A stretch of DNA of 64,000 bases from the NCBI RefSeq assembly GCF_007748175.1, contig NZ_CP037422.1, positions 6,216,334 to 6,280,333 of the forward strand. The letters are read 5' to 3'. Shown piece after piece: positions 1 through 7,711 of the stretch. How positions within the stretch are numbered: position 1 is the stretch's first letter; every line of letters begins with the position of its first letter. This stretch comes from Gimesia aquarii. GTDB taxonomy: Bacteria > Planctomycetota > Planctomycetia > Planctomycetales > Planctomycetaceae. The notes below the pieces were generated by a model that did no database searches, had not been told where the DNA came from, and was given only the letters and a program-made list of their open reading frames with translations. The position numbers and the translations under genes were made by a program.

Positions 1-1443
1 AACGCAGTGCGGCCCGGTATTCTCTACACACTGGGAACCGGTGAGTCATTTGATTTGCCGCCGGGAAAGTACACGCTCTATGCAACGCGCGGGATGGAAT
101 GGGGAGTGGCCAAGCAGCCAATTGTAGTCGAAAGCCTAAAGCCTCAGAGTCACACATTAGTGATTTCACGCGAAGTCGACACAACAGGTTTTGTTGCCTG
201 TGATAGCCATATTCATACTTTACCTGGTAGTGGCCATGGAAATGCCACATACGCCGAACGCATGATTACAATTGCCGGCGAAGGAATTGAAGTCGCTATT
301 GCCACCGATCACAATCACATATCCGATTACACGCCATATCAAAAACAATCGGGCACTAACGCTCATTTCCACGCAATCTCCGGCGATGAAGTCACAACTC
401 ATAATGGTCATTTTACCGCGTTTCCACTCGACCCCTCAAAAGCAGTTCCCGGAGGTGTGAAAGGCCGCAATCCACTCTTTCTGAAAAAAGAAGACTGGTC
501 TGAGCTGATCGCCGATATGCGAAACAAAGGGGCCGAAGTCGTAATTCTGAATCATCCCTATTGGCCCACGATACCGAAAGGCCCCTTCGGTCGATTTCGC
601 TTTAGCCGTAGCACAGGTAGTCGGATTGATGGACCTGCATTTAACTTCGACGGCTTTGAAGTCGCACAGCCTGCAAATGAAACCCCTGATTTTTTCTACG
701 CCCTCGAAGATTGGATGACATTACTGAATCGGGGATTGCGACTCACGGCTGTAGGCGCCACTGATTCTCACACAGTCAATGACCCGGTCGGACAAGCACG
801 AACGTATCTCAAGAGTCACATGGATGACGTTTCTCAAATCGATCGCAAAGAGGTTTATCGCGCATTCACAGAAGGGCGCGCGTCAGTGGCAGCGGGCATT
901 TTTGCAAATTTGACTCTAGCCAAACAGTACAACATGGGAGACCTTGTTCCAGCCACAACAGTGACTGAGCATCGTGATAACCAGAAATTCACTGCCAGTT
1001 TACGAGTCGCCGCACCTTCTTGGGTCCGTCCTCGTGAAGCCATGATCTACGTGAATGGGAAACAAGTTGCACACAAAAATATTGATTCGAAAATGAATCA
1101 GCCCACCAATCAAACGCTCACATTCTTACTTGATTTACCTGCTCATGACGCACACATCATAGCATTTGTCTTGGGAGACGGCATCACATTACCCGGTTGG
1201 ACAACCTACGGCAAAGCGACACAAGCAATCACAAACCCAATTTACCTGGACGTCAATGGAGACAAAAAATATAGCGCACCTCGCGATACTGCCAAGAGAC
1301 TGATCACAAAATTTGCAAGCCAGGATACAAAACTCACACCGGCTCAGCAAAAAACGTTGCTTGACTCAGAAACGGTTAAGGCAGATTCAACCGTACTCCT
1401 GCATGTCAAAGATCTACTCAAGCAGACTTCTGATCGGAAATAA
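1..1443 (+). CDS. CehA/McbA-family PHP metallohydrolase, 3' part (5' end outside window)
   Basis: The frame is open from the first base, so the gene begins upstream of the window and only about 480 C-terminal codons are seen. Metal-binding motifs of the PHP fold are present in order: DSHIHTL, ATDHNH, LNHPYW and TDSHT. Before them is the end of a carboxypeptidase-regulatory-like beta domain (PPGKYTLYATRGMEWG). The same arrangement recurs in the complete gene at 61905-63977, so the missing N-terminus probably has a signal peptide and a beta-sandwich. The family includes phosphoesterase-like hydrolases; the substrate is unknown. A C-terminal beta-domain follows the PHP part. Family call is secure, function is not. 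Confidence 0.85.
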   Translation, partial: NAVRPGILYTLGTGESFDLPPGKYTLYATRGMEWGVAKQPIVVESLKPQSHTLVISREVDTTGFVACDSHIHTLPGSGHGNATYAERMITIAGEGIEVAIATDHNHISDYTPYQKQSGTNAHFHAISGDEVTTHNGHFTAFPLDPSKAVPGGVKGRNPLFLKKEDWSELIADMRNKGAEVVILNHPYWPTIPKGPFGRFRFSRSTGSRIDGPAFNFDGFEVAQPANETPDFFYALEDWMTLLNRGLRLTAVGATDSHTVNDPVGQARTYLKSHMDDVSQIDRKEVYRAFTEGRASVAAGIFANLTLAKQYNMGDLVPATTVTEHRDNQKFTASLRVAAPSWVRPREAMIYVNGKQVAHKNIDSKMNQPTNQTLTFLLDLPAHDAHIIAFVLGDGITLPGWTTYGKATQAITNPIYLDVNGDKKYSAPRDTAKRLITKFASQDTKLTPAQQKTLLDSETVKADSTVLLHVKDLLKQTSDRK

Positions 1444-1492
1444 TTCCAGATATGAATGTATGCCTTTAGTGAAACAAGTGATCAAAGCAAAG

Positions 1493-1522
1493 CCCCCTGA
1501 TTTGATTAATCGAACCAGGGGG
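1493..1522. terminator. Hairpin between convergent genes
   Basis: CCCCCTGA and its complement CAGGGGG flank a loop containing GATT/AATC, which can extend the stem. It lies between the convergent ends of the PHP hydrolase (stop at 1443) and the ARPP-1-like gene (stop at 1547). The tails are only moderately T-rich (TCTTGTTC on +, CTTTGCTTT on -), so it may serve both strands as a weak bidirectional terminator. Confidence 0.6.
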
Positions 1523-1546
1523 TCTTGTTCTCAATTGAAATCCCAA

Positions 1547-2584
1547 TCAAATTACAAACGGCTGAGCTGTTTGCCACTTGTTCTCGGCAAGCCATTTCTT
1601 GGCCGTCGGCATTGATGCATAAACGATTCGGTTACCGTCTCGGATGACCTGTCCGGAAAACCGCCCCGGTTGGATCGTTTCAATCGTCAGGCCTTCAGTT
1701 GATTCGTCATATGTTAGATTCAACTGTTCGTCGAGTAATTCACGTACGGTCGACTTAGCCCGCTCGTCTTCCTGATTTGCGATCTCAGCGATCAACGACT
1801 CCAGTTCATCCAGTGAACTGATTTCATCCGGTAGCATCGTCTTTGATGTCGGCACTACTGGATAGGGTCCCTTTTGCTGAGCAACGCGAATCGCCAATGA
1901 ACCATAGCACTCTCGGATTAAGCATGGCCAAACACTCTGCCAGTACGCATGCGAAGGAGCTCGCTCGATTCCGACCACTTGATCATCGACTAAAATGATC
2001 GCGCCAATCTGCTGCGGCACACACTCAAATTCGGCAACAAACTCATCCAGTTCCTTGCGAAAATGGTTGAGAAAGTACTCAAGATGCCCCGCTGACTGAA
2101 TTCCCATTTCGCGGTTAAAATCTGAAATCGCAGTCCATAGCTTGTTGTAGCTTTTCACCTTCCGCATGTCTAACGCGCGCTCACGCAATGCGTAAGGCAG
2201 GATCAGCATCCGGTAGGCACCACGTCGAATGTACCCACCCTGTGACTGCTGGATGCACATCGCCGTATCGAAAGAACGTTCGTGTGTCGAGCGAATCACA
2301 CCAGCATGCGCCATTGCGTGATCCTGAGCACTTTGCTTCACAACATATCCTGCATGACAAGGCACGATCAGCACTCGATCACTCTGGTTACGGAATCCAA
2401 GTGTTCCATATTCAGTCGTGAATATCTCGGCTTCACCATTCACAGGTGAAACAAAGCGATCATCGGAAAGTTCACTTATCAGTGGAATAACCTGCATATA
2501 ACCAACGCTTTGGATACGACCTGGCGTGCAACCATGCAATACCTCAGCAATTCGAACTGTTTTTTTCTGACTTCGAAATACCAT
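1547..2584 (-). CDS. ARPP-1-like (DUF6569-type) protein downstream of the vWA gene
   Basis: 345 residues from the ATG that follows GGAGG by six bases (MVFRSQKK...). A longer frame to 2614 has no ribosome site. There is no signal peptide or membrane segment, so it is probably cytoplasmic. The central part reads like the ARPP-1 domain (ARG and rhodanese-phosphatase-superfamily-associated): a beta segment about nucleic-acid-like 'gift of last resort' phrases (LGFRNQSDRVLIVPCH), a region with RRGAYRMLIL, then QQIGAIILVDDQVVGIE and a tail YWQSVWPCLIRECYG. This match is from memory of the family pattern, not from a search. ARPP proteins occur in predicted NAD/ADP-ribose and conflict-type operons, without known activity. 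It follows the vWA gene in the same orientation with 96 bases and a strong hairpin between them. If not ARPP-1, it is an unrecognised cytoplasmic protein specific to this locus. Confidence 0.6.
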   Translation of the reverse strand: MVFRSQKKTVRIAEVLHGCTPGRIQSVGYMQVIPLISELSDDRFVSPVNGEAEIFTTEYGTLGFRNQSDRVLIVPCHAGYVVKQSAQDHAMAHAGVIRSTHERSFDTAMCIQQSQGGYIRRGAYRMLILPYALRERALDMRKVKSYNKLWTAISDFNREMGIQSAGHLEYFLNHFRKELDEFVAEFECVPQQIGAIILVDDQVVGIERAPSHAYWQSVWPCLIRECYGSLAIRVAQQKGPYPVVPTSKTMLPDEISSLDELESLIAEIANQEDERAKSTVRELLDEQLNLTYDESTEGLTIETIQPGRFSGQVIRDGNRIVYASMPTAKKWLAENKWQTAQPFVI

Positions 2585-2638
2585 TTTCCACCTCCATGAT
2601 GCATCGCGCATCAATCCCTCTTGTTATTCAAACGATTT

Positions 2639-2675
2639 CTTGTTCCCGTTGGTCGATGTGGCCAACGGGAACAAG
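2639..2675 (-). promoter_or_regulatory. Perfect 14-bp hairpin between vWA and ARPP-1-like genes
   Basis: CTTGTTCCCGTTGG and its exact complement CCAACGGGAACAAG flank a nine-base loop, starting six bases after the vWA stop codon. No T-run follows on the minus strand (next bases AAATCG), so it is not a classic terminator. It may be an mRNA-stability or processing hairpin that sets different levels for the two genes, or a rho-type end. Confidence 0.7.
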
Positions 2676-2680
2676 AGTCT

Positions 2681-4273
2681 TTAACCGAGCATAAGCTCGA
2701 CATGATCTGGTGATCCGGTTGATTCAATCAATGGGCAAACCATGCCCATCAGAGCTGTCAGTCCGCGATCAACATCCGCTTCGAACAGCGCCTTCAATAG
2801 CCCCAACCCAATTGCCTCCGGTTTGCTCACAGGCAGACCTGGAACTACATGGCTCAACGAACGAATTCCACGAGCTTCTGCAGCAAACACCGGCGAGAAC
2901 TGGTGAATGGGCGTCTCAACGCCGATTCGCCGTACCGCATGAACAACTTCTCCGAAGCGCCCTGCTGGTGCGTTCTCATATCCGTCAGTCAAAACAAAGA
3001 CAACATCAGGATCATGCTTCAGCAACGCAATCAAACCCATGGCGAGTGATGTATCGCCGACTGGTTCTATCAACTCTGTCGTCGAACCCGTTCGCCCATC
3101 ACTCGTAACAATGGTTGACTGCGCGGCAGTTTCAGCAAGTACATCACGTAAAGCTAAGACAACCGAGATTGGTCGCCGTGCCTGTGTAGCGTGTCCCTGC
3201 ATTGACTCCGAAACGTCTAACAAAATACCAACATGCTCGAAACGAACTGGAAGTCTTGCTGCCGTAGTACGAGCCTTTCGAGATAGTTCCTCACGAATTG
3301 CAGCATTCATACCCATTTCATACGCATAAACGTACAACCGAACGGCATCGTAATTGGCCGGATCAAAGTCGACTTCAACGTCAGCAGCTTGTGCCTTCCG
3401 TTGTAAACCGATTTTCTGACCCGATGTCAATTGTGACTTCGTCAACTCGAGTACTTCCGCACTGGCCTTATCACGGTGAAAACGACTACGTAGTCCTTCC
3501 AGCGTCTCGAACGGAAGCGTACGACCACTTGCAAGGTCTCGTTTCGCGTCTCGATAAGCCACAAGTCGACGTAGACTCAAACCATTCTCATCACCTAGTA
3601 CAAATCGAATACACTCTTCCACGCGTGCGATGTTACCTTGATCAACAAACCGACCTAAATGCCGCGAGATGATCTGCCGCTCTTTCTCGCTACGGTCATC
3701 TGTCCGTTTTGCAAGAATCGTATACATAATACTTGCAATACGGCGTCCCCAAGCATGAACCAACGCGGTTTCCAGCTTGCGACGATACTTGACCGCCCAG
3801 AATTCCAGTTTGTCTGCACGTAAAATACTCGACAAGATCAGACGACGTGTCCGCGCATTATTGACACGGTCCTTCCGCAGAATCCCGAACATTTTTAACA
3901 TTCGCTGCGTCGGTAGCATTTGCGACAACTTACTGATCACTGCTCCTTCCAGTTCAGCAGACATCCATCCCTCAGCGGATTGAGCTTCATTCAGCAGTCG
4001 AACGACGCCCAGCTGTCGGTTGAAATCGGTCAGTCCTGGCAGCATCAGCACAGCCGTGTAAACGCCACGATCCATTTCAAATAGTTCACGGTGAACCATT
4101 TCAATCGCCGCTTCTTGTTCAACACGTGTGTTATAGAATGTAGCACGTGAAGTTGCTGTCGCAGCTGTATCTATAAATGCACTGAAAGCCAATGGCAATA
4201 ATTCACGCTGCTCATTCGACAGATATGTCATACACACAGCTGGCTTTACCATTTTGCGAGTCAATTCCATCAT
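2681..4273 (-). CDS. Ro60-sized protein: alpha-helical N-terminus plus von Willebrand A domain (TROVE-like)
   Basis: 530 residues from ATG at 4273, preceded by AAAGGAG at six bases; an upstream extension starting with TTG lacks a ribosome site. Residues 1-345 are highly charged and helical, without signal or membrane segments. Residues about 347-520 form a vWA domain with a complete MIDAS: D353-V-S355-E-S357, T408 in GDTSLAMG, and D430 in LTDG. Human Ro60 is 538 residues with the same order (HEAT-like TROVE ring, then vWA). I did not find a recognisable TROVE sequence motif, so homology rests on architecture, length and neighbours. The gene starts 74 bases after the third tRNA-mimicking RNA on the same strand, the setting expected of a Ro/Rsr protein and its Y RNAs. 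Alternative: an unrelated vWA protein of MoxR/CoxE type, though no MoxR ATPase is nearby. Confidence 0.6.
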   Translation of the reverse strand: MMELTRKMVKPAVCMTYLSNEQRELLPLAFSAFIDTAATATSRATFYNTRVEQEAAIEMVHRELFEMDRGVYTAVLMLPGLTDFNRQLGVVRLLNEAQSAEGWMSAELEGAVISKLSQMLPTQRMLKMFGILRKDRVNNARTRRLILSSILRADKLEFWAVKYRRKLETALVHAWGRRIASIMYTILAKRTDDRSEKERQIISRHLGRFVDQGNIARVEECIRFVLGDENGLSLRRLVAYRDAKRDLASGRTLPFETLEGLRSRFHRDKASAEVLELTKSQLTSGQKIGLQRKAQAADVEVDFDPANYDAVRLYVYAYEMGMNAAIREELSRKARTTAARLPVRFEHVGILLDVSESMQGHATQARRPISVVLALRDVLAETAAQSTIVTSDGRTGSTTELIEPVGDTSLAMGLIALLKHDPDVVFVLTDGYENAPAGRFGEVVHAVRRIGVETPIHQFSPVFAAEARGIRSLSHVVPGLPVSKPEAIGLGLLKALFEADVDRGLTALMGMVCPLIESTGSPDHVELMLG

Positions 4274-4346
4274 ATTACACTCCTTTCGTGACAGCGAAGG
4301 CGCAGCTGCGCCAGACAAAATCAATACATGACTGATTTAATAGATT

Positions 4347-4500
4347 AAAAGACCGGAATACTTTGCAGGTCGAGATTGGTCATTGCGTGTTACCATTCCA
4401 CCACTCTCGCACAGATTTTCAATGCGAGAGGGGAGATTTGAACTCCCAAGCTGCTATTTGCAGCACAACGTTCTTCAGAATCGACATATCAGTTTCCGGT
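4347..4500 (-). ncRNA. tRNA-mimic RNA 3: Y RNA-like, circularly permuted class II tRNA module
   Basis: Read on the minus strand from 4500. Outer stem ACCGGAA (4494-4500) pairs with TTCCGGT (4352-4358), followed by CTTTT. Inside is GTCGA (4481-4485) with TCGAC (4369-4373). Then comes a permuted tRNA: CGTTG (4466-4470), variable arm CTGC-AAATA-GCAG (4451-4463), T arm GGGAG-TTCAAAT-CTCCC (4431-4447), acceptor strand CTCTCGCA, an 11-base cap, acceptor strand TGCGAGAG (together 4404-4430), TG, D arm GTG-GAATGGTAA-CAC (4387-4401), G, and CAATG (4381-4385). CAATG pairs with CGTTG as the anticodon stem. Put in normal order this is tRNA-Leu-like; the D arm closely follows bacterial tRNA-Leu. The anticodon loop is replaced by the two strands leading to the outer stems. 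Every stem is complete, which argues against decay. Confidence 0.85.
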
Positions 4501-4551
4501 TGTATCATTTCGCTGCTGGCAGACTGATTGCGCAACAGTCAGTTGATGATT

Positions 4552-4651
4552 AAAAAACCAGGGAATAGTGCCGGTCAAAGTCCTGCTATTGGGGAGTTGA
4601 ACCTCAACGGTTAACAGCCGTTGTCCTGAATTGACGTGCGAGTCCCTGGTT
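4552..4651 (-). ncRNA. tRNA-mimic RNA 2: closing stem with anticodon-like and T-like arms
   Basis: Outer stem AACCAGGGA (4643-4651) pairs with TCCCTGGTT (4556-4564) and runs into TTTTTT, an intrinsic-terminator-like end. Inside, GTCAA (4631-4635) pairs with TTGAC (4574-4578). The insert has a perfect anticodon-type hairpin, CAACGG-CTGTTAA-CCGTTG (4605-4623), with U33 and the tRNA-Asn anticodon GUU at 4613-4615. A T-arm-like GAGG-TTCAACT-CCCC follows with one A.C mismatch. No D arm or acceptor stem can be drawn. Between this RNA and RNA 3 lies a separate small hairpin (4522-4540, GACTG around TTGCGCAAT). It could be a trimmed mimic or a degraded tRNA-Asn, but the flanking module is intact. Confidence 0.75.
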
Positions 4652-4652
4652 A

Positions 4653-4785
4653 AACTAAAAGCGAGGTCAATTTGCGGGTCAAGGGTTTCAGCGAAGGATT
4701 TGAACCTTCGACTTCTAGGGTAATAGCCTAGTGCTCTACCATTGAGCTAGCTGTATTGACTTGCTAGTTCCCGTGTCTCTTAGTT
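4653..4785 (-). ncRNA. tRNA-mimic RNA 1: near-complete tRNA cloverleaf in the shared closing module
   Basis: First of the three on the minus strand. Outer pairing AACTAAGAG (4777-4785) with CTC (4663-4665) and TTAGTT (4653-4658); inner GTCAA (4756-4760) with TTGAC (4678-4682). The insert has a short acceptor-like stem CAGC/GCTG, TA, D arm GCTC-AATGGTA-GAGC, anticodon arm CTAGG-CTATTAC-CCTAG (4715-4731), a five-base variable loop and T arm GAAGG-TTCAAAT-CCTTC (4693-4709). The formal anticodon is AUU (plus-strand 4722-4724), not used by normal bacterial tRNA-Asn. Extended as a real tRNA, the acceptor would have two mismatches (ATACAGC/GCTGAAA), and no CCA is encoded. An automatic tRNA finder may call it tRNA or pseudo-tRNA; the flanks shared with RNA 2 and RNA 3 suggest otherwise. 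Confidence 0.75.
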
Positions 4786-4843: not shown

Positions 4844-5051
4844 GAGATACAAACGATCGTCGTCTTCACATCGGAGCAGAAATAATTTGTGTCACAGGAC
4901 TCTATCATATATCATCTGATAGACAGGAGAGAAACTTCCTTAACGAATGAAGGCAATCGCAGTAAACAACAATAAAACCAAGCCACTTGAATTTTTTCCG
5001 CATCAGTATCCTTGTTGCCTGCTGAGTTAAATGTTATCGAGGAGAAGCGTG

Positions 5052-6605
5052 ATGAGAATTGGAATTCTGTTATGCCTATTATTTACTTCGTCCGTTCATG
5101 CAGCGACGAAACCAAACATTGTCTTCATCCTTGCGGATGATTTAGGCTACGGCGATGTCGCATGTTTTAACTCAGAATCAAAAGTTCCGACGCCCTACCT
5201 CGATCAACTCGCCGCCGATGGTATGCGTTTCACTGACGCTCACAGTCCCTCGACTGTCTGTACGCCGACCCGTTATAGCATCATGACGGGACAAATGGCG
5301 TTCCGCCTGAATTACCCCGGTGTCTTTACCGGCGTGGGCGGACCTTGCTTGATTGCCAAGGATCGATTGACGCTTCCCGGCATGTTGCGTGATAAAGGAT
5401 ACGAGACCGCAATATTTGGGAAATGGCACATCGGCATGACATTTTTGGACAAGGATGGGAAAATGATCCATGCCAGGCGACCTGCTCAAAATACTGATCG
5501 TACAATTAAAATCAATCCTGGTGTGGAAGCCGTCAGACGAATTGATTATTCACGGACCGTACCTGATGCGCCAATTCACCGAGGTTTTGATCACTTTTTT
5601 GGGACGGTCTGTTGCCCAACAACAGACTGGTTGTATGCCTTCATGGACGGTGACCGCATTCCGGTACCACCTGCCAAATTGCTTGATAAATCCAGTCTGC
5701 CTAAGCACGCGTGGTCATTTGACTGTCGTCAGGGATTGATTGCCCCTGATTTTGACCATGAAGAAGTGGACATGGTCTTTCTGAAAAAGAGTCTGGAATT
5801 TCTAGACAAGCACAGCAAAGAATATCCGGAGAAACCCTTCTTTCTTTTTCACTCACTGCAAGCGGTTCATCTTCCCTCATTCCCCGGGAAAGACTTTCAT
5901 GGCAAGACTCTAGCAGGACCTCACGGGGACTTCATCTTTGAATTCGATTATATTGTGGGACAGTTGCTTCAAAAGCTCGAATCACTGGGACTGACTGAGA
6001 ACACACTCGTCATCGTAACCAGTGATAATGGCCCCGAAGTAGGCACCGTGATCAATATGCGTGAAAAACATCAACACAACGGAGCGCGACCGTGGCGGGG
6101 CATGAAACGTGATAATTGGGAGGGGGGACATCGCGTTCCCATGATTGTTCGTTGGCCAGGAAAAGTAGAGGCAGGTTCAATCAGCGATCAAACCGTGTGT
6201 CTGACCGATATGGTGGCAACTTGCGCTGCGATTGTTGACACCAAATTACCGAATGACGCTGCCGAGGACAGCTTCAATATTCTGCCAATTCTGTTAGGCG
6301 AGACAAAAGAGGATATTCGTGATTTCACATTGCACCAGACTATGAGTCTGAAGTTAGCGATTCGAAATGGTGACTGGAAGTATCTCGATCACAAAGGGTC
6401 CGGGGGAAACAACTACGGCCGAGGAAAGTTGAAACGATTCAATTTGCACGACAAAGCTCCTGACGCGCCGGGACAACTCTACAATATGAAGAGTGATCCA
6501 GGCGAGACGACAAATTTGTACTTCAAGCATCCCGAAATCGTCAAGAAATTAAAGAATCAACTTGAGCAGTTCAAAAAAAGTGGTCGCAGTGCTCCAGTTC
6601 GTTGA
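5052..6605 (+). CDS. Secreted sulfatase (arylsulfatase A family)
   Basis: 517 residues starting MRIGILLCLLF..., chosen because GAGGAG lies seven bases before it; a longer frame from 5031 has no ribosome site. The signal peptide ends near SVHA. KPNIVFILADDLGYGD supplies the first metal ligands. The CxPxR-type sulfatase signature CTPTR has Cys70, expected to be converted to formylglycine, so a maturase elsewhere in the genome is needed. GKWHIG and TSDNGPE are further family motifs. It probably acts in the periplasm on sulfated polysaccharides, as for the many sulfatases of marine planctomycetes. It stands alone, divergent from the RNA/vWA unit. Confidence 0.93.
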   Translation: MRIGILLCLLFTSSVHAATKPNIVFILADDLGYGDVACFNSESKVPTPYLDQLAADGMRFTDAHSPSTVCTPTRYSIMTGQMAFRLNYPGVFTGVGGPCLIAKDRLTLPGMLRDKGYETAIFGKWHIGMTFLDKDGKMIHARRPAQNTDRTIKINPGVEAVRRIDYSRTVPDAPIHRGFDHFFGTVCCPTTDWLYAFMDGDRIPVPPAKLLDKSSLPKHAWSFDCRQGLIAPDFDHEEVDMVFLKKSLEFLDKHSKEYPEKPFFLFHSLQAVHLPSFPGKDFHGKTLAGPHGDFIFEFDYIVGQLLQKLESLGLTENTLVIVTSDNGPEVGTVINMREKHQHNGARPWRGMKRDNWEGGHRVPMIVRWPGKVEAGSISDQTVCLTDMVATCAAIVDTKLPNDAAEDSFNILPILLGETKEDIRDFTLHQTMSLKLAIRNGDWKYLDHKGSGGNNYGRGKLKRFNLHDKAPDAPGQLYNMKSDPGETTNLYFKHPEIVKKLKNQLEQFKKSGRSAPVR

Positions 6606-6625
6606 TGTCCGAATGAAAAAAATTG

Positions 6626-7711
6626 TTAATCGACGTTCGCCAGTGATTCGCTTTTGGTGATAATGACTTCCATCAATTCGTTCCACGAATTAACGAATGA
6701 CTCGGCACCATCTTCTTGAAGCTTAGTTGCAAGCGCCTGAACGTCGATGCCCGCTTTTTCAAATTCATTGAGCACGTCTTCACAGTCACCGCCGTCTGCA
6801 GGCAGAGCAGGTCCAACCTCACCATGATCGGCAAACGCGTTCAATGTGTTCTCAGGCATTGTATTCACGGTAAAAGGCGATGCGAGTGACGTGATATAGA
6901 GAATATCAGACGCGTTAGGGTCTTTCATTCCCGTACTTGCCCAGAGTAATCGTTGTGGGCGGGCACCGGAATTCAATGCGCGCTGCCAGCGCGGGGAATT
7001 CAGCAAGTCTTGATACGCCTTGTAGGCCCGTTTACCGACGGTAACTCCTAACCGATTATGCAGTGAATCAGGAACCTGGTCGACAACAGCACGATCCCAG
7101 CGGCTGATAAATAAGGAAGCGACAGAACCGACGGCAGGATTCAATCCTGCTTCAATCCGTCGTTCAACGCCTCTCAAAAAGGCTTCGGCGGCTTCCATAA
7201 AGTGCTCGCTTGAAAACAGGAGTGTTACATTGACGGGAATTCCCGCGAACGTGGCTTCTTCAATTGCCGGAAGTCCTTCTTTCGTGCCGGGAATTTTGAT
7301 CAACACATTGGGACGTCCTGCGCGAGCATGCAAATCTTTCGCAGCCGCTAAAGTGCTTTCCGTGTCATAAGCGAGTAAAGGGGAAACTTCCAACGAGACC
7401 CACCCATCGACTCCGTCTGTTTTATCCCAGACCGGTCGAAACAAATCCGCAGCCTGCGTGATATCTTCAAGGGCAACCTCAAAAAAGAGCTGCTCCCCCC
7501 TCTCACCGTTTTTGAATTTTGCCTGGATCGCGCTGTCGTAAGACTGGCTGTTTTTGATTGCCTGATGAAAGATCGTAGGGTTTGAGGTCAAACCGGTTGT
7601 CGAAAGTTCGTCGATATACCGTTGGAGTGTCCCATTATTGAGCAGGTCGCGTGTAATATTGTCAAGCCATAGACTTTGCCCGAGATTGTTGAGTTCTTGT
7701 GTTGCCTTCAT
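6626..7711 (-). CDS. tal: Transaldolase
   Basis: 361 residues from ATG at 7711, seven bases after GGAGG. It transfers a dihydroxyacetone unit between sugar phosphates in the non-oxidative pentose phosphate pathway in the cytoplasm. LSTTGLTSNPTIF is the family's N-terminal signature and NVLIKIPGT carries the Schiff-base lysine. The length fits the longer bacterial subgroup (as in cyanobacteria and actinobacteria). It ends 20 bases from the convergent sulfatase stop. A longer in-frame stretch to 7861 is ignored because it lacks a ribosome site and family similarity. Confidence 0.95.
   Translation of the reverse strand: MKATQELNNLGQSLWLDNITRDLLNNGTLQRYIDELSTTGLTSNPTIFHQAIKNSQSYDSAIQAKFKNGERGEQLFFEVALEDITQAADLFRPVWDKTDGVDGWVSLEVSPLLAYDTESTLAAAKDLHARAGRPNVLIKIPGTKEGLPAIEEATFAGIPVNVTLLFSSEHFMEAAEAFLRGVERRIEAGLNPAVGSVASLFISRWDRAVVDQVPDSLHNRLGVTVGKRAYKAYQDLLNSPRWQRALNSGARPQRLLWASTGMKDPNASDILYITSLASPFTVNTMPENTLNAFADHGEVGPALPADGGDCEDVLNEFEKAGIDVQALATKLQEDGAESFVNSWNELMEVIITKSESLANVD

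Follow-up and report, generated by a model that had tools for sequence, protein, structure and literature searches.

A window of 64,000 nucleotides from the Gimesia aquarii genome carries a 3.4-kb cassette, likely acquired, in which three tRNA-mimicking RNAs are followed on the same strand by genes encoding a vWA protein with a predicted Ro60 fold and an ARPP-1 protein (Table 1). All of these parts had been placed here by a first-pass annotation of the DNA, which read them as a Ro-like ribonucleoprotein (RNP), and our analysis supports that reading. We propose, at somewhat less than even confidence, that the two proteins and the three RNAs may form a bait RNP, with the RNAs serving as targets for enzymes that cut or modify the RNAs of translation.

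Table 1. Features of the cassette (positions within the window)
Feature	Position	Strand	Basis
Cassette, unit absent from sister genome	1462..4849		BLAST of window against L105 (genome G002)
Inverted repeat CCCCCTG/CAGGGGG, then T-rich tract, after ARPP-1; possible terminator	1492..1524	-	By eye
ARPP-1 protein (DUF6569), 345 aa	1547..2584	-	PF20208, E 2.3e-32; conservation; AF2 pLDDT 91.7
vWA protein, 530 aa: alpha-helical N-terminal domain (about 20-340) and vWA domain with MIDAS	2681..4273	-	Conservation, AF2, Ro60 matches
RNA-C: frame and circularly permuted class II (Leu-like) tRNA	4348..4503	-	Fold z, acceptor hairpin, ARAGORN after rotation
RNA-B: frame with an anticodon stem-loop (CAACGG-CUGUUAA-CCGUUG; anticodon GUU) plus T-arm-like hairpin; D arm lacking	4554..4654	-	Frame model, reading
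RNA-A: D arm, anticodon arm (AUU) and T arm; frame stem replaces acceptor stem	4661..4779	-	ARAGORN, Rfam, frame model

The cassette and its two proteins

At the sister locus, BLAST with the window showed positions 146-1461 fused directly to 4850-7000, the three RNAs, the vWA gene and the ARPP-1 gene being jointly missing. The inverted repeat that follows ARPP-1 is unlisted in our scan for such repeats because its loop exceeds the maximum of that scan. Of the three flanking genes scanned, one encodes a sulfatase, one a transaldolase and one a protein that was left unassigned. The window's cassette stands alone, outside any tRNA array; elsewhere such cassettes often lie within arrays.

The length of the vWA protein assumes a start at the ATG at 4273, within a 547-residue open reading frame ending at 2681. 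The helical N-terminus and complete MIDAS are as described earlier. In an alignment of 43 sequences (A1), the MIDAS residues D354, S356, S358 and D431 are invariant, and T409 is conserved in at least 90%. In structure comparison of the AF2 model (pLDDT 89, pTM 0.85), the top matches are Ro60 proteins over the whole chain, and the protein is predicted to be a helical-repeat ring closed by the vWA domain, much as the first-pass annotation had anticipated in proposing a TROVE-like ring. By sequence it is not a member of the TROVE family. PF05731 was absent from the window's protein at E values up to 1 and from the 43 members of A1 at E values up to 0.1, the vWA-family profile found no match to Ro60 in the PDB, and hhalign against TROVE aligned the vWA part alone (probability 82), leaving the helical part without an alignment.

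The partner protein matches PF20208 at 113 bits against a curated cut-off of 27, and Q25, Y59, Q87, C110, W150 and E187 are invariant in an alignment of 41 sequences. A structure search with its AF2 model returned no match, so that conservation is what suggests an effector role for ARPP-1. ARPP-1 is the only partner gene present in most loci; when neighbouring genes were grouped into families by BLAST (two of these were Pfam-scanned), no family besides vWA and ARPP recurred in more than five loci.

Three RNAs on a shared frame

The RNAs share what we call a frame, in which the 5' and 3' ends pair in a stem with a conserved asymmetric internal loop, beside the gene for the Ro60-like protein. 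RNA-A is called tRNA-Asn(att) by ARAGORN (4683-4756) and matches the Rfam tRNA model at 57.4 bits; RNAs of this type lack the acceptor 3' half and CCA. The frame model scores RNA-A at 31.3 bits and RNA-B at 37.8 bits, both being among its training sequences. Measured against shuffled sequences, the fold of RNA-B is weak (z -1.64) and that of RNA-A, taken by itself, shows no advantage (z -0.64). The three structured tRNA mimics with their own closing stems are present as first described, except that the outer stem of RNA-A is mispaired, which is not so in its relatives.

RNA-C is a circularly permuted tRNA, a point absent from the first-pass annotation. Its variable arm comes first, followed by the T arm, the acceptor 3' half, a linker, the acceptor 5' half and finally the D arm, the tRNA being opened in the anticodon loop, where the frame enters. 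A closed acceptor hairpin (7/7 bp) lies 3' of the T arm, the stretch 4340-4475 folds well relative to shuffles (z -3.44), and ARAGORN recognises the tRNA only after rotation, with its intron option. The frame model missed RNA-C at E values up to 1. The three RNAs do, as claimed, present different tRNA faces: a tRNA body in RNA-A, an anticodon arm with a T-arm-like hairpin in RNA-B, and a permuted tRNA in RNA-C.

The RNAs are conserved beside vWA homologues, as the first-pass annotation required of its reading. In 71 loci, the 1500 nt upstream of the vWA gene hold 64 frame 5' cores, whereas the rest of that strand has 23 and the opposite strand 22. The cores were picked by 5' sequence alone and so afford a fair test of pairing. 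At a score of 20, 60 of the 64 have a pairing 3' partner, compared with a mean of 55% (about 35/64; maximum 70%) when partners are taken from other loci, and at a score of 25 the corresponding values are 56/64 and 15%. The duplicate loci L057, L058, L080 and L082 are retained in these position and pairing counts and are left out of the distinct-locus, array and permuted-insert counts. Pair counts in the 58 training RNAs (71 matches, less 15 that were background, overlapping duplicates or mis-joined, plus the window's RNA-C and its RNA-A, the latter re-joined by hand) lean towards structure, as these RNAs were partly picked by pairing score. Pair statistics on alignment A3 were mixed: two of five measures (changes on both sides, further pair types) did not exceed shuffles, and covariation was higher with the partner slid by one column (0.421) than in the true register (0.341), which we ascribe to register shifts. 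Across 40 genomes, with 147 candidates scored per genome of 535-1817, the frame model reported the window's RNA-B alone.

Such pairing bears on whether the RNAs are functionless debris of decayed tRNA genes or array remnants, as their frequent position within or beside tRNA arrays and the mispaired stem of RNA-A might suggest. A common frame with pairing stems is found across phyla and viral contigs, the permuted inserts keep their acceptor hairpins (see below), and the RNAs and both genes are present or absent together relative to the sister genome; we regard debris as highly improbable.

In 39 of 67 distinct loci, frame RNAs lie ahead of the vWA-ARPP genes and share their strand. Setting aside ten remote loci (L048-L051, L081, L083-L087) leaves a core family of our own choosing, in which 18 of 57 loci have no frame RNA at a threshold of 30 within 1500 nt; by reading, frames that are variant, score lower or lie farther away were seen in some of these loci and none in others. 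The upstream position of the frame RNAs would suit a leader that controls vWA-ARPP expression by sensing tRNA that is uncharged or cleaved, like stacked T-box elements. Yet each RNA has paired ends of its own that close it, the frame model finds two copies downstream of ARPP in L060, phage record LR756500.1 (L122) has its framed tRNA some 1.6 kb upstream of the gene, and Rfam found only tRNA and one sub-threshold match in the RNA stretch of the window, where no regulatory family, T-box included, reached its gathering score. We consider a leader very unlikely. In the two sets of nine and eleven loci scanned, tRNA was likewise the only Rfam family above the gathering score, and none matched the frame.

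Exchangeable inserts and the proposed bait

The inserts and their anticodons are the most variable part of the frame RNAs. Many frame RNAs, not all, carry a tRNA-like module; in 23 of the 76 inserts no likeness to tRNA is recognisable. These include short hairpins from viral contigs, an insert of 65 nt in L043 and the long hairpin of L071. The script that assigned insert classes misfiled the permuted inserts L031_5105, L071, L075, L076 and L078, which a rotation test reclassified. An acceptor hairpin of 7 bp is present in all 12 permuted inserts, and the frame often takes the place of their anticodon loop. One relative alone bears an insert resembling 23S rRNA (helix 69-71), to which Rfam gave no match. 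The anticodons include AUU, AUG and AAG, which are unusual in bacterial tRNAs.

Type A is recognised as tRNA, as is type C once rotated, and archaea and algae do have permuted tRNA genes, as would be expected if the RNAs were precursors processed to working tRNAs. That is very doubtful, however, since type A has no acceptor 3' half or CCA and the anticodons are odd for bacteria; by reading and by the rotation test, type C is no complete tRNA after processing, as the frame occupies the place of the anticodon loop. Moreover, the host genome has at least 68 other tRNA-model matches among the 150 of 401 candidates scored.

Many relatives of the cassette lie within or beside tRNA gene arrays, both in bacteria and in large viral contigs. 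Carriers that are in culture include Thalassoglobus neptunius KOR42, Minicystis rosea DSM 24000 and Rhodopirellula sp. SM50. In the array counts, tRNAs were taken as unframed if they lay outside any frame that scored at least 27 within 1500 nt upstream, and some of them may belong to variant or distant frames. When the window's vWA protein was searched against 50,697 phage records, LR756500.1 was the single match.

In the bait RNP that we envisage, the vWA protein would bind the RNAs, its ring holding the conserved stem and asymmetric internal loop, with the sequences ACT/NTNCAG, as a handle, by analogy with the way Rsr holds the Y RNA stem. Each insert would expose one tRNA or rRNA face (the anticodon loop in type A, the anticodon and T arm in type B, the acceptor/T/D side in type C, a 23S element in one relative) and could lure anticodon nucleases and other ribotoxins. 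As decoys, the RNAs might protect the genuine tRNAs; as sensors, they might pass a signal of their own damage through the ring to ARPP-1, which its invariant Cys and Gln suggest may be an enzyme acting upon bait damage. A fuller version would be a guard system in which a ring with swappable copies of vulnerable parts of translation RNAs, such as anticodon loops, the acceptor/T-arm faces of permuted tRNAs and 23S helix 69-71, would trigger ARPP-1 upon a cut in any of them, and large phages and mobile tRNA islands would use it to detect or blunt immunity that cleaves tRNA and rRNA. We hold this version, too, to be a real possibility, though less probable than not.

Alternatively, the RNAs might act as Y RNAs do, gating the ring and tethering a partner nuclease or tRNA enzyme, with the modules as docking sites, in quality control of array tRNAs; nuclease gating had been proposed in the first-pass annotation. 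The anatomy is that of YrlA, a paired-end stem and tRNA-like module beside the gene for a Ro60-fold protein, and the part of PMC8394870 consulted describes YrlA as using its stem to bind Rsr and its tRNA-like domain to bind PNPase. The tRNA-array setting would also suit surveillance. A docking site is expected to be conserved, yet the inserts and anticodons vary most, and one tether needs neither several RNAs per locus nor opposite tRNA faces. We hold this alternative to be a real possibility, if the less probable side of the question. Besides such a tether, we count against the bait reading the non-tRNA-like inserts, the frame-less loci, the mixed pair statistics, the broken stem of RNA-A, the failure of the model to find RNA-C, the solitary 23S-like insert and the lack of a structural match for ARPP-1.

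Relation to known systems

Like Ro60/Rsr and its Y RNAs (YrlA, RYPER), the cassette combines a whole-chain helical ring and vWA fold, here predicted, with nearby RNAs made of a paired-end stem and a tRNA-like module. It differs in having no TROVE sequence match, a frame that matches no Rfam family in the scanned stretches, and multiple RNAs whose exchangeable inserts include permuted tRNAs and, in one relative, an rRNA piece; ARPP-1 stands where rtcBA is the partner of Ro60, and rtcB and rtcA were found neither among the three scanned flanking genes nor as recurrent neighbours in more than five loci. Ro60-type proteins are borne by phages as well: the consulted parts of the sources describe TROVE proteins with putative Y RNAs in jumbo phages (PMC7824862) and, in Listeria phage CKA15, an Rsr-like gene less than 2 kb from three regions of high transcription, which are possible Y RNAs (PMC12282133), and a structure of phage phiLo Ro60 is available (PDB 9l5y). 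In contrast, the window's protein matched only one of the phage records searched.

ARPP and vWA proteins also occur together in the neighbourhoods of ADP-ribosylglycohydrolase (ARG)-centric conflict systems, where the vWA protein is termed a peptide-binding chaperone (PMC9503650, in part); the consulted part of that paper makes no mention of tRNA-mimic RNAs beside ARPP. Here, an ARG gene was found neither among the three scanned flanking genes nor among the recurrent neighbours, nor, around the ARPP-2 pair in L118, among the six genes scanned with Pfam. The permuted inserts resemble archaeal and algal permuted tRNA genes in placing the 3' half before the 5' half, joined across the acceptor end, but they lie in a closed frame and are seemingly not processable to tRNA. 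The genomic setting is that of the tRNA array units of phages and mobile elements, termed a putative antidefence system in the consulted part of PMC12803027, with the difference that a cassette of two genes and mimic RNAs is added, which also stands alone, as in the window.

Ro60-type RNPs would thereby gain a second family, its ring part unrelated by detectable sequence, and with it a modular RNA family that found no Rfam match in the scanned stretches. To our knowledge, why bacterial Y RNAs mimic tRNA is an open question, and the natural swaps of tRNA face and anticodon on a constant handle make it directly testable. The frame RNAs are compact natural designs that show one tRNA face each. 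If the bait reading is true, the cassette would be an RNA counterpart of decoy immunity and would partly explain the role of tRNA arrays in huge phages.

Organization and distribution of the cassette

Three small RNAs, a 530-residue vWA protein and an ARPP-1-like protein had been placed by the first-pass annotation in this order on one strand, and this arrangement was confirmed on the minus strand of the window; the vWA protein has a predicted Ro60 fold. RNA-A alone was called a tRNA by ARAGORN and Rfam; RNA-B and RNA-C went uncalled by either method, and RNA-C reads as a permuted tRNA. Compared with shuffled sequences, the RNA-C stretch has a convincing fold (z -3.44); the signal is weak for RNA-B (z -1.64) and not significant for RNA-A (z -0.64).

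Positions of the cassette components in the window
Feature	Position	Strand	Basis
RNA-A	4779-4661	minus	called tRNA by ARAGORN and Rfam
RNA-B	4654-4554	minus	read in sequence
RNA-C	4503-4348	minus	read in sequence
530-aa vWA protein	4273-2681	minus	ORF
ARPP-1 protein	2584-1547	minus	protein family scan

In a sister genome of the genus (sulfatase 96% identical), window positions 146-1461 join straight to 4850-7000, so that the two genomes differ here by the three RNAs, both genes and short flanking stretches. Of 17 genomes in the genus, only that of the window has a closely similar vWA gene, and for this reason we read the cassette as an insertion. Searching 40 genomes for the frame, the type of stem that closes each RNA, reported only the window's RNA-B, with 147 of 535-1817 candidates scored per genome. 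Two tRNA arrays of the window's genome (15 and 11 genes; L119 and L120, G000:C1 3.87 Mb and 4.82 Mb) lie far from the cassette and contained no frames by the model. The LSU rRNA model matched this genome at model positions 15-1144 only, in four pieces at G000:C1 3955016-3956132 (10 of 127 candidates scored); the remainder may be unscored or odd.

A remote vWA relative (~30% identity) is present in 8 of 16 genus relatives (L002-L009, in G002, G004, G006, G008, G009, G012, G013 and G016) and is paired with ARPP-2 at L002, the one locus examined. The covariance model found no frame RNA at these loci, which are possibly an older, RNA-free sister system. Canonical TROVE proteins, 73-75% identical to a Blastopirellula TROVE protein, occur in nine of the 16 relatives (including L101-L103), and none was found in the window's genome. 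On the 436-kb Alkaliphilus plasmid pB6464 (L123 3396-7564), a TerD-family gene is followed by a remote vWA relative and a DUF6569 gene, with one frame-like match (score 37) whose insert is not obviously tRNA-like.

Thirty-six loci (32 without duplicates) are contigs labelled viral by IMG/VR, of up to 436 kb. One of these, L053, and the 462-kb GenBank record LR756500.1 appear to represent a single phage: the 100 nt compared are identical, four tRNA positions agree, and the LR756500.1 stretch has a framed tRNA ~1.6 kb upstream of the vWA gene. Around the 67 distinct loci, ARAGORN found 372 tRNAs outside called frames, all 372 co-oriented with the vWA gene, with at least three in 30 loci and none in 23.

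A conserved frame upstream of the vWA gene

Reading the DNA upstream of homologues gave a common order of outer stem, RACT, 2-9 nt, inner stem (4-5 bp, mostly GTCA or GTCG), NTNCAG, insert, inner 3' strand, ~10 nt and outer 3' strand. The RNAs proved to be conserved beside vWA homologues. Cores picked by 5' sequence alone numbered 64 within 1500 nt upstream of the gene, and elsewhere 23 on its strand and 22 on the other; a pairing partner accompanied 60 of the 64 at score 20 and 56 of the 64 at score 25, versus 55% and 15% with partners from other loci. The pairing search of 71 loci gave 71 forward matches against 9 in reverse and 4-8 in shuffles. Looser scanning of these loci at threshold 27 gave 80 upstream (45 loci), 10 reverse and 14 in the gene body, and of the 67 distinct loci at threshold 30, 67 (39 loci), 6 and 3, respectively. 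The covariance model gave 40 matches (77 sources, E up to 1), none of them on the strand opposite the gene; 7 came from outside its training set.

The inner stem has standard pairs in every cell, and two of its four pairs change on both sides; in the outer stem, 60% of cells are paired and all seven pairs show changes on both sides. Of five whole-structure measures, two are no higher than in shuffles, and sliding the partner by one column raised the covariation score above that of the proposed register, which could be explained by register shifts in the internal loop.

Exchangeable inserts

A script classed 76 distinct inserts as 22 bodies in tRNA order, 10 with anticodon and T arm, 11 with anticodon only, 6 permuted, 2 with D only, 2 with T only and 23 other. 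In 12 of 78 inserts the T arm leads into a closed acceptor hairpin, in each case with 7 of 7 pairs formed; 2 of 3900 shuffled sequences show this arrangement. ARAGORN called none of these 12 in their native order, 6 once rotated and 11 with its intron option. By reading, the point at which the frame enters the tRNA differs between RNAs. In type A it is the acceptor end; in type C (window, L018, L019, L025, L031 and both L078 inserts) it is the anticodon loop. In L032 it lies between the D and anticodon arms and in L071, L075 and L076 between the variable region and the T arm, with L045 left without assignment. Both L078 inserts retain ACCA downstream of the acceptor 3' strand. The proposal that the RNAs show different tRNA faces is supported.

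In five near-identical sister RNAs (L020-L023, L026), insert variation is confined to positions 34, 36 and 37 plus one additional site and yields the anticodons CUU, AUG and UUU; these RNAs also differ at a few sites on the frame's 3' side, and a sixth, L024, differs at further sites. Twelve aligned planctomycete type A RNAs carry eight different anticodon loops.

Within one L019 insert, 22 nt are identical to the 23S rRNA encoded in that genome; a gapped, condensed alignment of the insert to the surrounding region scores 79.5 against 66.5 for the best of 200 shuffles. We take this region to be helix 69-71, a target of some RNA toxins. Other frame RNAs carry inserts that are not tRNA-like, namely two hairpins in L043 (5693-5776; Phycisphaerales MAG) and, in the viral contig L071 (5476-5573), a long hairpin of ~-44 kcal/mol. 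Very short frame RNAs in viral contigs L052, L059, L062, L065, L066, L068 and L069 have 17-20-nt inserts, which could be a minimal anticodon-like hairpin.

ARPP-1 and a putative role for the RNAs

ARPP-1 accompanies the vWA gene in 68 of 71 loci, usually lying immediately 3' of it; it lies upstream in L083 and ~1.2 kb farther away in L085 and L087, and the three loci missing it (L030, L031, L042) are on contigs that end shortly past or inside the vWA gene. Every other protein family is limited to five loci or fewer. A 303-aa protein lacking a Pfam match (L077 10300-11211) belongs to a cluster found in five (L022, L025, L056, L077, L083). Aligned ARPP-1 sequences have invariant residues including Q25, Y59, Q87, C110, W150 and E187, and the AF2 model (pLDDT 91.7) matched no solved structure. 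From its conserved Cys and Gln, PMC9503650 proposes that ARPP is an enzyme that acts on sugar moieties.

The first-pass annotation knew of no description of a set of three different tRNA mimics with an ARPP partner, and judged by titles and the starts of abstracts, no paper describing a vWA/ARPP-1/tRNA-mimic RNA system was recognised in searches of the open-licence literature. Bacterial YrlA is the nearest comparison drawn here: its stem binds Rsr and its tRNA-like domain binds PNPase, according to PMC8394870. The cassette RNAs share this anatomy of stem plus display module, as expected of a Y-RNA-like tether, an explanation we consider somewhat less likely than baits: a tether would select for an unchanging display, yet here the variable part is the display rather than the handle. 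Baits, in contrast, would favour a changing display. Because the display varies and the handle does not, we tentatively prefer a putative bait RNP, possibly sensing damage, in which the RNAs would attract, as bait, enzymes cutting or modifying the RNAs of translation, the Ro60-like ring would carry them and ARPP-1 would act as effector.
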